Positions 1-29,212 of a stretch of DNA of 29,212 nucleotides are shown piece by piece (the stretch's first letter is position 1; every line of letters starts with the position of its first letter). The stretch is from IMG/VR virus record IMGVR_UViG_3300027816_000311, positions 1-29,212 of that record. One strand, 5' to 3'. The notes beneath the pieces are model-generated. The model was not told the DNA's origin, searched no databases, and saw only the letters and a list, made by a program, of their open reading frames with translations. The stretch is from a virus. The position numbers were made by a program, and so were the translations under genes.

Positions 1-127
1 CAAAGACTACTCAAGAAGTTGATGAGTTAACACAAGCCTATGGTGAAAACAGCCAAGAAGTAACGGAAGCCAAAGGTAGGTTAAACGAATTAAACACGAG
101 CTACAAAGAGTTAAATAAAAGCGCTAC
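1..127. repeat. terminal direct repeat, left copy (circular contig overlap)
   Basis: Bases 1-127 match 29086-29212 exactly, and the coding frame of the tape-measure gene runs through the match. An exact overlap of 127 bases equals a common maximum k-mer of de Bruijn assemblers. The simplest reading is a circular assembly graph, giving a unique genome of 29,085 bp, not a true terminal repeat. A circular map fits a circularly permuted, headful-packaged or cohesive-end phage; the sequence alone does not say which. Confidence 0.95.
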
Positions 128-11052: not shown

Positions 11053-11298
11053 ATGATACCTATAACACAATTTATTGATGTAATTAAAAAGCATGGAGCA
11101 TTAGGAGTTCTTGCATTATGGCTAACGTACACACACTTTGAGGTGCAAGATGTTAAAGACAGACTTTACAATTGCTTAGAAAAAAACGAAACAATTAATA
11201 GGCAGCCTATTGAGGAAAAGCAGCCACCGTTACCAAGTGAAAAAAATGATACGGTTGCAGTACTTGAAAGTAAAAGTCGTAAATTAGCGAAAAAATAA
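11053..11298 (+). CDS. holin-like small membrane protein (BhlA/UviB type)
   Basis: This candidate holin would let the endolysin reach the peptidoglycan. A short amphipathic N-terminus (MIPITQFIDVIKKHG) leads to one hydrophobic segment near residues 15-28 (ALGVLALWLTYTHF). A charged helix (EVQDVKDRLYNCLEKNE) and a proline/lysine-rich tail follow. This layout is that of BhlA/UviB-type holin-like peptides, where a single membrane helix is followed by a charged coiled coil. It is 4 bases upstream of the endolysin gene, which strongly supports a lysis role. Confidence 0.6.
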   Translation: MIPITQFIDVIKKHGALGVLALWLTYTHFEVQDVKDRLYNCLEKNETINRQPIEEKQPPLPSEKNDTVAVLESKSRKLAKK

Positions 11299-11301
11299 TT
11301 T

Positions 11302-11844
11302 ATGGTAAGAAGTTATACAGATAAAGAGCTTTTAGATTATGTAAAGGCGCTACCGTCTTTTAATGGTTTTCCTGGTGAGCCTTGGTTGTTATTTGTACGT
11401 TCAAAAGAAGATACTAATGACCGTTTCGATGACAAGGTATATATGTTTCAGCTTGATCAGTTTATAATGGTTACTTCATGCACTACCAACAAAGGAAACA
11501 AAGGTACTGCTGTTATGGAAGCTGGAGCATGGTATTATGATTCGTATGCTTATGGGCTTCATAAAGGCAAAATGCCAGCACTTAGACAAATGAAAGGAGT
11601 TCCATATCGTAGAGACTTTACAAACGACCTTAAAACAAATCCTACCACCGAGATAAAAAAAGATATTATTTACATGAATATTCACGGTGCTACATATAAC
11701 CAAGGTTCTAAACAAATAGCGACAAGAATAGGCGGTTGGAGTGAGGGGTGCTTAGTATTGAATAATAATGCCGATTACGAAAAGGTAGTAAATATTTGTA
11801 AACGATACCCTAAAACAAGTATTGTGTTAATAAACGAATTTTAA
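11302..11844 (+). CDS. YkuD-like (L,D-transpeptidase fold) endolysin
   Basis: This is a probable peptidoglycan-cleaving lysis enzyme. The C-terminal half contains NIHGATYNQ with His128 and GGWSEGCLVL with Ser147 and Cys150, matching the His ... S-x-G-C catalytic pattern of the YkuD fold with one variation (E in place of the usual H). The core includes the strand VYMFQLDQFIMVTSCTT and a conserved-looking VPYRRDF. There is no signal peptide, as expected for a holin-dependent enzyme. It is immediately downstream of the holin-like gene and upstream of a cationic protein. In phages this fold probably acts as a carboxypeptidase or endopeptidase; the bond cut cannot be told from sequence. Confidence 0.72.
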   Translation: MVRSYTDKELLDYVKALPSFNGFPGEPWLLFVRSKEDTNDRFDDKVYMFQLDQFIMVTSCTTNKGNKGTAVMEAGAWYYDSYAYGLHKGKMPALRQMKGVPYRRDFTNDLKTNPTTEIKKDIIYMNIHGATYNQGSKQIATRIGGWSEGCLVLNNNADYEKVVNICKRYPKTSIVLINEF

Positions 11845-11845
11845 G

Positions 11846-12130
11846 ATGGCAAAGAAAAAGATAAAAATAGATACTGAAGGAATAGACGTTAATTTAGAAA
11901 AAGACGGCACTAATATTAAGCTGGATATAGATACTAAAAACGTAGATATTCACGTACTAAAAGACGAAGTGAATAAGGAATTTAAGTTAGACGGTAAAAA
12001 CATTGATATAGATATTAAAAAAACGCCCGACGGTGTCGAGGTGAAAGTCGATGCCCAAGGCGCGTTATGGAAACTGATAGCTAAAAGAGTAGTAAAGTTT
12101 ATTTTAAGACGTTTTAGAATAGGAAAATAA
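11846..12130 (+). CDS. cationic amphipathic C-terminal protein, candidate disruptin or membrane-active lysis factor
   Basis: The first 70 residues form short alternating-polarity repeats with I-D-I/V and K-L-D motifs (KIKIDTEGIDVNLEKDG, KLDIDTKNVDIHVLKD, KNIDIDIKKTPDGVEVKVD), consistent with a beta-solenoid-like or beta-meander fold. The last 22 residues switch to a strongly basic amphipathic helix beginning LWKLIAKRVVKFILRRF, with eight Lys/Arg and no acidic residue, like an antimicrobial peptide. It is the last gene of the late unit, two bases after the endolysin stop, and no spanin pair is visible. A role in breaking the outer membrane, as reported for phage disruptins, is my inference. 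A DNA- or virion-binding protein is the alternative. Confidence 0.6.
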   Translation: MAKKKIKIDTEGIDVNLEKDGTNIKLDIDTKNVDIHVLKDEVNKEFKLDGKNIDIDIKKTPDGVEVKVDAQGALWKLIAKRVVKFILRRFRIGK

Positions 12131-12157
12131 AAATCTTTCTGTTTGTTTTGTGTGATG

Positions 12158-12189
12158 AAACCCTTGATTATTCAGGGGTTTTGTTTTTT
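12158..12189 (+). terminator. rho-independent terminator ending the late operon
   Basis: A 10-bp stem (12158-12167 with 12172-12181, one wobble) with a 4-base loop is followed by TTTTG then six T residues. It marks the boundary between the lysis cassette and the early region. Confidence 0.9.
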
Positions 12190-12214: not shown

Positions 12215-12244
12215 TTGTTATATTAAATAATTATATTAATTTTG
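12215..12244 (+). promoter_or_regulatory. Bacteroidota-type promoter for the small-gene cluster
   Basis: TTG at 12215-12217 is followed by a 19-base spacer and a TAATTTTG box at 12237-12244, which fits the Flavobacterium consensus TTG/TAnnTTTG. The site lies just after the late terminator and 22 bases before the first small gene. The flanking sequence resembles the sites before 16072, 16679 and 19137. Confidence 0.78.
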
Positions 12245-12266: not shown

Positions 12267-12413
12267 ATGAAAAAACGAACAGGAATTTTAATTAACTCGA
12301 TAATTATTTTGTTGGGTTACACTTACGAAAGTTACTTACTTTTAGGAATAGGAGTAATTTGCTTAACTTTAGTATTAATTTCTAAAACTAAAAGACATGA
12401 ACTCAAAAATTAA
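12267..12413 (+). CDS. small membrane protein, 48 aa
   Basis: I do not recognise this protein. A basic start (MKKRTG) precedes one or two hydrophobic segments (ILINSIIILLGY and YLLLGIGVICLTLVLI), then a basic tail (SKTKRHELKN). Two short membrane helices with both ends inside are likely. It is the first gene after the promoter at 12215-12244 and overlaps the next gene by 17 bases. Small membrane proteins at the start of early operons often modify the host envelope, but no function can be assigned here. Confidence 0.72.
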   Translation: MKKRTGILINSIIILLGYTYESYLLLGIGVICLTLVLISKTKRHELKN

Positions 12414-13056: not shown

Positions 13057-13152
13057 ATGGCAGAGGAAGCAAAGATGGCATTACTACTTGCGGTAGTAGG
13101 TTTTTTATGTATATTAATAGGAGGTATTTACAATGAAAAGACGAAGGATTAA
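13057..13152 (+). CDS. tiny single-span membrane protein, 31 aa
   Basis: The product is an acidic N-terminus (MAEEAKM), one hydrophobic helix of about 17 residues (ALLLAVVGFLCILIGGI) and a short charged tail. The start at 13057 fits tight spacing after the preceding stop. The reading frame extends upstream without a stop, but the earlier part overlaps the neighbouring gene out of frame. Function is unknown. Confidence 0.6.
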   Translation: MAEEAKMALLLAVVGFLCILIGGIYNEKTKD

Positions 13153-13260: not shown

Positions 13261-13503
13261 ATGAAAAAAATATTTATAACAGTAGCTATTGGTTTAAGTT
13301 TGACCAGCTGCAAAAAAGAATGTAATTGCGGTACTATAACAAATGATGAGATAACTTTAGATGCAAATAACAATCCGTGTTATTCGTTGACAGTTAGAAA
13401 TTCGTGTTCAGGTAATACTAAGACTTGGTGTTTTGATTACTCGGTATGGTTTGAGGGAAATGTAGGAGAAAATTTTTGTGTTACGAATGTAGATAGTTGG
13501 TAA
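13261..13503 (+). CDS. phage-encoded lipoprotein, cysteine-rich, 80 aa
   Basis: The N-terminus is a lipoprotein signal peptide: MKK, a hydrophobic core (IFITVAIGLSL) and the lipobox L-T-S-C with lipidation at Cys17. The mature part starts CKKECNCG and has six further cysteines, enough for three disulfides, with a beta-rich body (YSLTVRNSCSGNTKTWCFDY, then VWFEGNVGENFCV). I associate this layout with small Flavobacteria lipoproteins. In phages, early lipoproteins commonly block receptors and prevent superinfection, which is the favoured inference here. ATG 13261 is chosen because the upstream TTG would place the signal peptide two residues further in. Confidence 0.75.
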   Translation: MKKIFITVAIGLSLTSCKKECNCGTITNDEITLDANNNPCYSLTVRNSCSGNTKTWCFDYSVWFEGNVGENFCVTNVDSW

Positions 13504-15505: not shown

Positions 15506-16032
15506 AAACACGAAAATGTAAATACTGTAAGTCCGTCTTTACACCGATTAATAGTTTACAAAAGAACTGTTTTGAACCTTTGTGTGTATCAGACTGGATA
15601 AATGAAGTAAAAGAAAAGAACTGGAAAAAGAAAAAGTCTAAAATGAAAATGGATTTAATGACGATTCAGGATTACGTTAAATTAGCGCAGCAAGTATTTA
15701 ATAAATATATTCGATTACGAGATGCTGGGAACGTTTGTATATCGTGCCAAAAGAAGCCGTTAAAAACCAATGCTGGGCATTTCTACAATGCTAACAATCA
15801 TTGGTCCGTTAGATTTGACGAAAGGAATGTTCATCTTCAATGCGAACACTGTAATACGTATCTTTCTGGAAACTTAATTTACTACCGAGAAAACCTATTG
15901 AAGAAAATAGGAATAGAAGAATTTGAGAATTTAAGTGATGAAGCTACTAAAACTCGGAAGTTTACGATCGAGGAACTAAAAGAAATTATAGCAACTTATA
16001 AAAAAAAGTGTAAGGAATTAGAACTATATTAA
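15502..16032 (+). CDS. ninG: NinG/Rap-like recombination endonuclease
   Basis: Lambda NinG (Rap) cuts recombination intermediates such as D-loops and Holliday junctions. The N-terminal CKYC (Cys6, Cys9) with a second pair around Cys22/Cys28 forms a zinc-finger-like unit. A lysine-rich region follows, then QQVFNKYIRLRD and the zinc-binding nuclease core: CISC (Cys79, Cys82), AGHF (His93) and HLQCEHCN (Cys114, Cys117). SGNLIYYRENLLKKIG completes the family pattern. At 176 residues it is close to the usual length of about 200. It lies in the replication/recombination module, with the ERF and exonuclease genes downstream. Confidence 0.85.
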   Translation: MKTRKCKYCKSVFTPINSLQKNCFEPLCVSDWINEVKEKNWKKKKSKMKMDLMTIQDYVKLAQQVFNKYIRLRDAGNVCISCQKKPLKTNAGHFYNANNHWSVRFDERNVHLQCEHCNTYLSGNLIYYRENLLKKIGIEEFENLSDEATKTRKFTIEELKEIIATYKKKCKELELY

Positions 16033-16050
16033 TAATTTATATTACTTTTG
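16018..16050 (+). promoter_or_regulatory. possible promoter, weak -33 element
   Basis: A TACTTTTG box at 16043-16050 matches TAnnTTTG, and the flanking sequence resembles the promoter at 12215-12244 (TATATTAA then TATATTA before the box). No TTG sits at the right distance; TTA at 16018-16020 is the nearest. It lies 22 bases before the ATG at 16072. Confidence 0.5.
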
Positions 16051-16610: not shown

Positions 16611-16628
16611 ATATTTTTTTTAATTATA

Positions 16629-16656
16629 GTTATATTAAAAATTATTATTAAATTTG
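16629..16656 (+). promoter_or_regulatory. promoter for the recombination operon (ERF), -33 weak
   Basis: TAAATTTG at 16649-16656 matches the TAnnTTTG box 23 bases before the ERF start. The upstream stretch (ATAGTTATATTAAAAATTAT) matches that of the promoter at 12215-12244 closely, though no clear TTG is present. Confidence 0.65.
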
Positions 16657-19083: not shown

Positions 19084-19113
19084 TTGTTTATTTAAAAAGT
19101 TATATTAATTTTG
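19084..19113 (+). promoter_or_regulatory. Bacteroidota-type promoter
   Basis: TTG at 19084-19086, a 19-base spacer and TAATTTTG at 19106-19113. It lies directly after the terminator and 23 bases before the ATG at 19137. The box and upstream TTATATTAA are identical in kind to the promoter at 12215-12244. Confidence 0.78.
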
Positions 19114-29025: not shown

Positions 29026-29212
29026 ATATAGTTGACAACGCAAATCAAACGCAGCAGCAGTTTGAAAACCTACGACAACAGATTGCAAAGACTACTCAAG
29101 AAGTTGATGAGTTAACACAAGCCTATGGTGAAAACAGCCAAGAAGTAACGGAAGCCAAAGGTAGGTTAAACGAATTAAACACGAGCTACAAAGAGTTAAA
29201 TAAAAGCGCTAC
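28998..29212 (+). CDS. tail tape measure protein, N-terminal part (continues at base 3 of the window)
   Basis: The start of the tape-measure gene. It encodes MAETRTIELNIVDNANQTQQ and a helical continuation (QQFENLRQQIAKTTQEVDEL) that stays in frame through the duplicated 127 bases into 3-2282. The N-terminus resembles TMPs by its Q/N/E-rich coiled coil. The start ATG lies within the preceding small gene. Confidence 0.88.
   Translation, partial: MAETRTIELNIVDNANQTQQQFENLRQQIAKTTQEVDELTQAYGENSQEVTEAKGRLNELNTSYKELNKSA
29086..29212. repeat. terminal direct repeat, right copy (circular contig overlap)
   Basis: Identical to bases 1-127. It should be counted once; removing it gives the circular genome of 29,085 bp. 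Confidence 0.95.

Follow-up and report, generated by a model that had tools for sequence, protein, structure and literature searches.

A cationic-tailed third gene of phage lysis cassettes as a candidate disruptin-like protein in spanin-less phages of probable flavobacterial hosts

Lysis operon and characteristics of ORF94

The window, i.e. the whole stretch of 29,212 nucleotides that was analysed, carries a 127-nt direct repeat at both ends and thus represents a complete genome. The lysis genes and neighbouring signals are listed in Table 1. The late operon ends with ORF94, behind a holin-like and an endolysin gene. The preliminary description had placed it last among the late genes, in agreement with the strong terminator that follows it and the promoter beyond. 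For the endolysin named there, a match to a PHROG endolysin family was obtained (E 2e-5), together with weak YkuD similarity under the Pfam cut-off and the conserved motif HG..GGWSEGC. The first gene is called holin-like on account of its position and a single hydrophobic stretch; it matched no family.

Table 1. Features of the lysis operon and genome ends in the window.
Feature	Position	Strand	Basis
Direct terminal repeat, left copy	1..127	none	127-nt repeat
Holin-like protein, 81 aa, one N-terminal hydrophobic helix, conserved YTHFEVQD	11053..11298	+	function inferred from position
YkuD-type endolysin, 180 aa, ending 1 nt before the ORF94 start	11302..11844	+	PHROG endolysin, weak YkuD
ORF94, candidate third lysis protein, 94 aa, subfamily A of the ORF94 family	11846..12130	+	ORF, comparative evidence
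ORF94 residues 1-72, basic N-terminus (MAKKK) and beta-meander of ten-residue strands	11846..12061	+	repeat analysis, low-confidence AF2 models
ORF94 residues 73-94, cationic amphipathic C-terminal helix ALWKLIAKRVVKFILRRFRIGK	12062..12127	+	composition, AF2 models
Intrinsic terminator, end of the late operon directly after ORF94	12154..12185	+	z -5.6
Bacteroidetes-type promoter, TTG-N19-TAnnTTTG, of the next (early) operon	12215..12244	+	pattern match
Direct terminal repeat, right copy	29086..29212	none	127-nt repeat

The pattern TTG-N19-TAnnTTTG is one that we take to be the Bacteroidetes promoter type. The portal protein was closest, among cultured phages, to that of Nonlabens phage P12024S (36%). 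Judging from the promoter type and the nearest cultured relatives, the host of this phage is likely flavobacterial. The promoter pattern occurs five times in the genome, where 1.0 occurrences would be expected; a further promoter sequence lies at 19084-19113, and similar repeats are present at 16009-16050 and 16615-16656.

The product of ORF94 is a protein of about 11 kDa, MAKKKIKIDTEGIDVNLEKDGTNIKLDIDTKNVDIHVLKDEVNKEFKLDGKNIDIDIKKTPDGVEVKVDAQGALWKLIAKRVVKFILRRFRIGK. In most comparisons dN was 0.06-0.14 and dS about 0.8-1.3; with dN well below dS, ORF94 is a genuine gene and evolves under purifying selection. Self-identity of the core was maximal at a lag of 20 residues (17/50 positions), a value matched at any lag from 8 to 30 by 0.03% of shuffles, which bears out the repeated beta units described previously. 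Written in tens, the core reads EGIDVNLEKD / GTNIKLDIDT / KNVDIHVLKD / EVNKEFKLDG / KNIDIDIKKT / PDGVEVKVDA; each 20-residue repeat pairs two ten-residue strands in a hairpin, and the whole forms a regular beta-meander. Two structure predictions, both of low confidence (pLDDT 62 and 46), have the C-terminal helix in common and differ at residues 35-48. No match above the cut-offs was obtained against Pfam, PHROGs or PDB sequences, nor any with E below 0.001 when the better model was compared by Foldseek with the PDB and viral structures. ORF94 has no signal sequence, and the endolysins likewise have none.

Charge is distributed unevenly, with a net value of -3 for residues 1-71 and +8 for residues 72-94. 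The last 22 residues contain exactly eight Lys/Arg, as first noticed, and no Asp or Glu. Among 8053 windows of 22 residues in the plus-strand ORFs, the tail is the only one with a net charge of +7 or more together with a mean hydrophobicity of 0.35 or more. Its description as an amphipathic helix holds at about 90 degrees, where the moment is strong (0.71; 0.8% of shuffles over 85-110 degrees), and less well at the ideal 100 degrees, where it is weak (0.39, reached by 19% of shuffles); the amphipathicity runs along an i/i+4 stripe. The tail carries +7 or +8 in 49/49 subfamily-A sequences and +6 or +8 in subfamily B, and its charge is kept while the whole proteins of the family diverge down to about 35% identity.

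Distribution of the ORF94 family in lysis cassettes

ORF94-seeded searches yielded at least 80 loci, scans with the holin motif and with an endolysin profile contributed further ones, and the pooled family comprises at least 112 distinct genes. The preliminary description had proposed a search for homologues at the same position in other Flavobacterium phages. All 105 of the 105 family genes with enough upstream DNA were found after a holin-like gene followed by an endolysin gene, with no exception; these loci belong to related uncultured phages and many were discovered through the cassette genes, and owing to shared ancestry and this mode of discovery they are not fully independent. In the holin-seeded set, ORF94 was present in 87/87 contigs of sufficient length, and the 19 contigs without it were all cut off. 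No homologue was found in cultured phages, and scans of bacterial genomes gave no match to ORF94 or to the holin motif.

The preceding genes were holY and M15 in 38 cassettes and in four more with an HNH endonuclease between, holY and YkuD in 25 (subfamily A) and nine (subfamily I), holQ and YkuD in 27 (subfamily B), holY and a second M15-like type in one, and holQ and M15 in one. The HNH homing endonuclease is inserted between endolysin and ORF94 in L017, L019, L049 and others, and that of L017 consists of NUMOD4 and HNH_3. By hhalign, subfamilies A, I and B are homologous to one another (E 1e-14 to 1e-24).

The endolysin type (YkuD vs M15) switches about seven times along the ORF94 tree (6-8 in bootstraps), and at least three of these changes are forced by well-supported branches. 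ORF94 is likewise retained where the holin-like gene has been swapped for an unrelated one, and it tracks the lysis genes through both kinds of swap while the genes directly upstream of them vary. These comparisons support the assignment of ORF94 to the lysis cassette. A function as endolysin inhibitor or chaperone was rejected, because the endolysin fold changes while ORF94 stays.

Spanins and the gene after the endolysin in other phages

In the distant M15 cassettes L231, L232, L236, L248 and L254, the gene after the endolysin encodes an N-terminal lipobox and a C-terminal transmembrane segment, the arrangement of a u-spanin-like protein. In other distant M15 cassettes the slot is taken by a holin-like protein with two transmembrane segments or by a small, very basic protein; those of the latter kind in L211 and L217 are of 43-44 aa (MATKKFKVHKMYKGK...) and of 104 aa, Lys/Arg-rich. 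In the cultured Polaribacter phage P12002S, gp33 (L313:3989-4399) directly follows endolysin gp32, ends in a transmembrane segment and is 34% identical to the L231 protein. The u-spanin-like genes of these five cassettes and of P12002S are unannotated or recorded as 'hypothetical'.

Lipoproteins were sought in all frames with a home-made pattern, from which unusual lipoprotein signals could escape. The scan recovered the u-spanin-like protein in 5/5 control loci and nothing else there, and found no coding-strand lipoprotein in any frame in 6/8 complete genomes with terminal repeats, so that classical spanins are unlikely in these phages. In the other two, the hits were a TTG-started candidate in G010, apparently spurious, and an early-region lipoprotein in the window. 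No lipoprotein in any frame lies near the window cassette, and there is no o-spanin-like candidate beside an i-spanin with a transmembrane segment. The scan thus supports the earlier statement that no spanins are visible, the single isolated lipoprotein being that at 13261-13503.

This lipoprotein (lipobox LTSC, then KKECN and several further cysteines) is present in 5/49 relatives and was counted against a role of ORF94 as an outer-membrane disruptor. It is unlikely to be a spanin, having no partner nearby, a separate operon and this sparse distribution, and may serve in superinfection exclusion. Close downstream of the lysis operon, 12267-12413 and 13060-13152 encode small membrane proteins (48 and 30 aa) that have relatives in 30/49 and 33/49 loci, respectively; as i-spanins they were ruled out, since a periplasmic domain is absent.

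Proposed role and comparison with known systems

We consider that ORF94 is probably (at about 0.62) a third component of the holin-endolysin cassette in spanin-less phages, which would break the outer membrane in a disruptin-like manner. Its fixed last place in the cassette and the absence of spanins suggest that it is these phages' route through the outer membrane. That ORF94 persists when the holin-like gene or the endolysin is exchanged speaks against its having either of them as a specific partner and in favour of a target independent of both. Lacking a signal sequence, ORF94 would build up in the cytoplasm beside the equally signal-less endolysin, and both should wait there. The holin would then open the inner membrane and the endolysin cut the wall; since a folded endolysin (124-182 aa in most relatives) has to get through the holin, the smaller ORF94 could also leave. 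Once released, the cationic amphipathic helix may insert into the outer membrane and destabilise it. The beta-meander would serve as a carrier, holding the helix in solution and preventing damage by it, possibly by way of an acidic surface, and may also contribute avidity. Storage in the cytoplasm, release and disruption of the outer membrane are what we infer from these features taken together.

An inner-membrane regulator of lysis, either an antiholin or a holin accessory whose cationic helix tunes holin timing from the anionic inner leaflet, would also agree with the missing signal sequence, the amphipathic tail and the invariant cassette place. We regard it as unlikely, given that a specific holin partner fits poorly with the persistence of ORF94 where an unrelated gene replaces the holin-like gene, and that genomes free of lipoproteins would be left with no known outer-membrane disruptor. 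The basic N-terminus, the cationic tail and the position at the end of the late genes could also belong to a protein of the virion, or to one that binds nucleic acids, whose gene just happens to close the operon, and subfamily B (L336, L344-L386) starts with MAKKVGRPKKV, in which GRPKK resembles an AT-hook. This motif is missing from subfamilies A and I, there is no match to virion families, and ORF94 follows the lysis genes through their swaps while the adjacent upstream genes vary, which makes this explanation quite improbable.

ORF94 may instead descend from a u-spanin, keeping a beta-rich ectodomain, with the lipid anchor lost and the C-terminal membrane helix turned into a cationic, surface-binding one, and still joining the membranes. 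It occupies the slot of the u-spanin-like genes, and of about 6000 ORFs, the L248 protein scored highest outside the family with both profile A and profile I, at borderline values (E 0.0018 and 0.0027); the match scored 17.2 bits against 10.9 for the best of about 2000 shuffles, and the L248 transmembrane segment aligns with the ORF94 helix. On the other hand, profile B did not match L248, homology to the L231 u-spanin-like family was not supported (hhalign probability 0.7%), and lipobox and transmembrane segment are both missing from the ORF94 family. This explanation as a whole is very unlikely; common descent of ORF94 and u-spanins is a lead from borderline sequence matches, not a finding. 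For the disruptor role preferred here, a more specific version is offered tentatively, as a possibility that we doubt more than we favour: ORF94 would represent a novel class of outer-membrane disruptor, widespread in uncultured phages of probable flavobacterial hosts, a signal-free decapeptide-repeat beta-meander with a cationic helix, that replaced a u-spanin or evolved from one by losing both membrane anchors.

Approximately 13% of surveyed phages have no identifiable spanins (PMC6139136), and how spanin-less phages pass the Gram-negative outer membrane is an open question (PMC12819732). Disruptins are the known alternative to spanins (PMC6139136; PMC12819732), and are hard to predict because they are diverse. 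The ORF94 family combines more than 100 distinct genes, a fixed place in the cassette, natural swaps of both partners and u-spanin-like genes in the same slot elsewhere; with these features, the outer-membrane question becomes directly testable with one small gene. The family also suggests a position-based search for other unrecognised outer-membrane disruptors.

The reading of ORF94 as a disruptin, raised in the preliminary description, gains from its cassette membership, the lack of detectable spanins and the u-spanin-like proteins found in its slot elsewhere; it gains nothing from sequence similarity to the disruptin phiKT gp28, of which there was none (local alignment score only 20), and similarity may not define disruptins. 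According to PMC6139136, phage phiKT has no identifiable spanins, and its gp28 is described in PMC12819732 as a short amphipathic helical peptide. Both proteins are small, net cationic (gp28 +7) and encoded directly after the endolysin in a holin-endolysin cassette, whereas gp28 has 56 aa and ORF94 has 94, with a 72-residue beta-repeat part before the helix. Of the features expected of a disruptin, ORF94 has the cassette of a spanin-less phage and a cationic, antimicrobial-peptide-like helix (+8, predicted, moment 0.71 at ~90 degrees), and differs in not being essentially a helix alone. It would belong to the disruptins by shared physics and position only.

With two-component spanins (lambda Rz/Rz1 type) ORF94 has in common the presumed step, outer-membrane disruption, whereas the o-spanin-like lipoprotein of such systems is absent near the window cassette and from 6/8 complete genomes. 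Unimolecular spanins (T1 gp11 type) have their counterpart in the u-spanin-like proteins located after the M15 endolysin in other, probably flavobacterial, phages; ORF94 differs from them in starting with MAKKK, in its negative lipoprotein scan and in having eight Lys/Arg within 22 residues in place of a C-terminal transmembrane segment. In phiKMV-like endolysins, a cationic amphipathic helix is likewise linked to membrane-penetrating activity (PMC6139136); there the helix is fused to the endolysin, whereas here it is carried by a separate, neighbouring protein.
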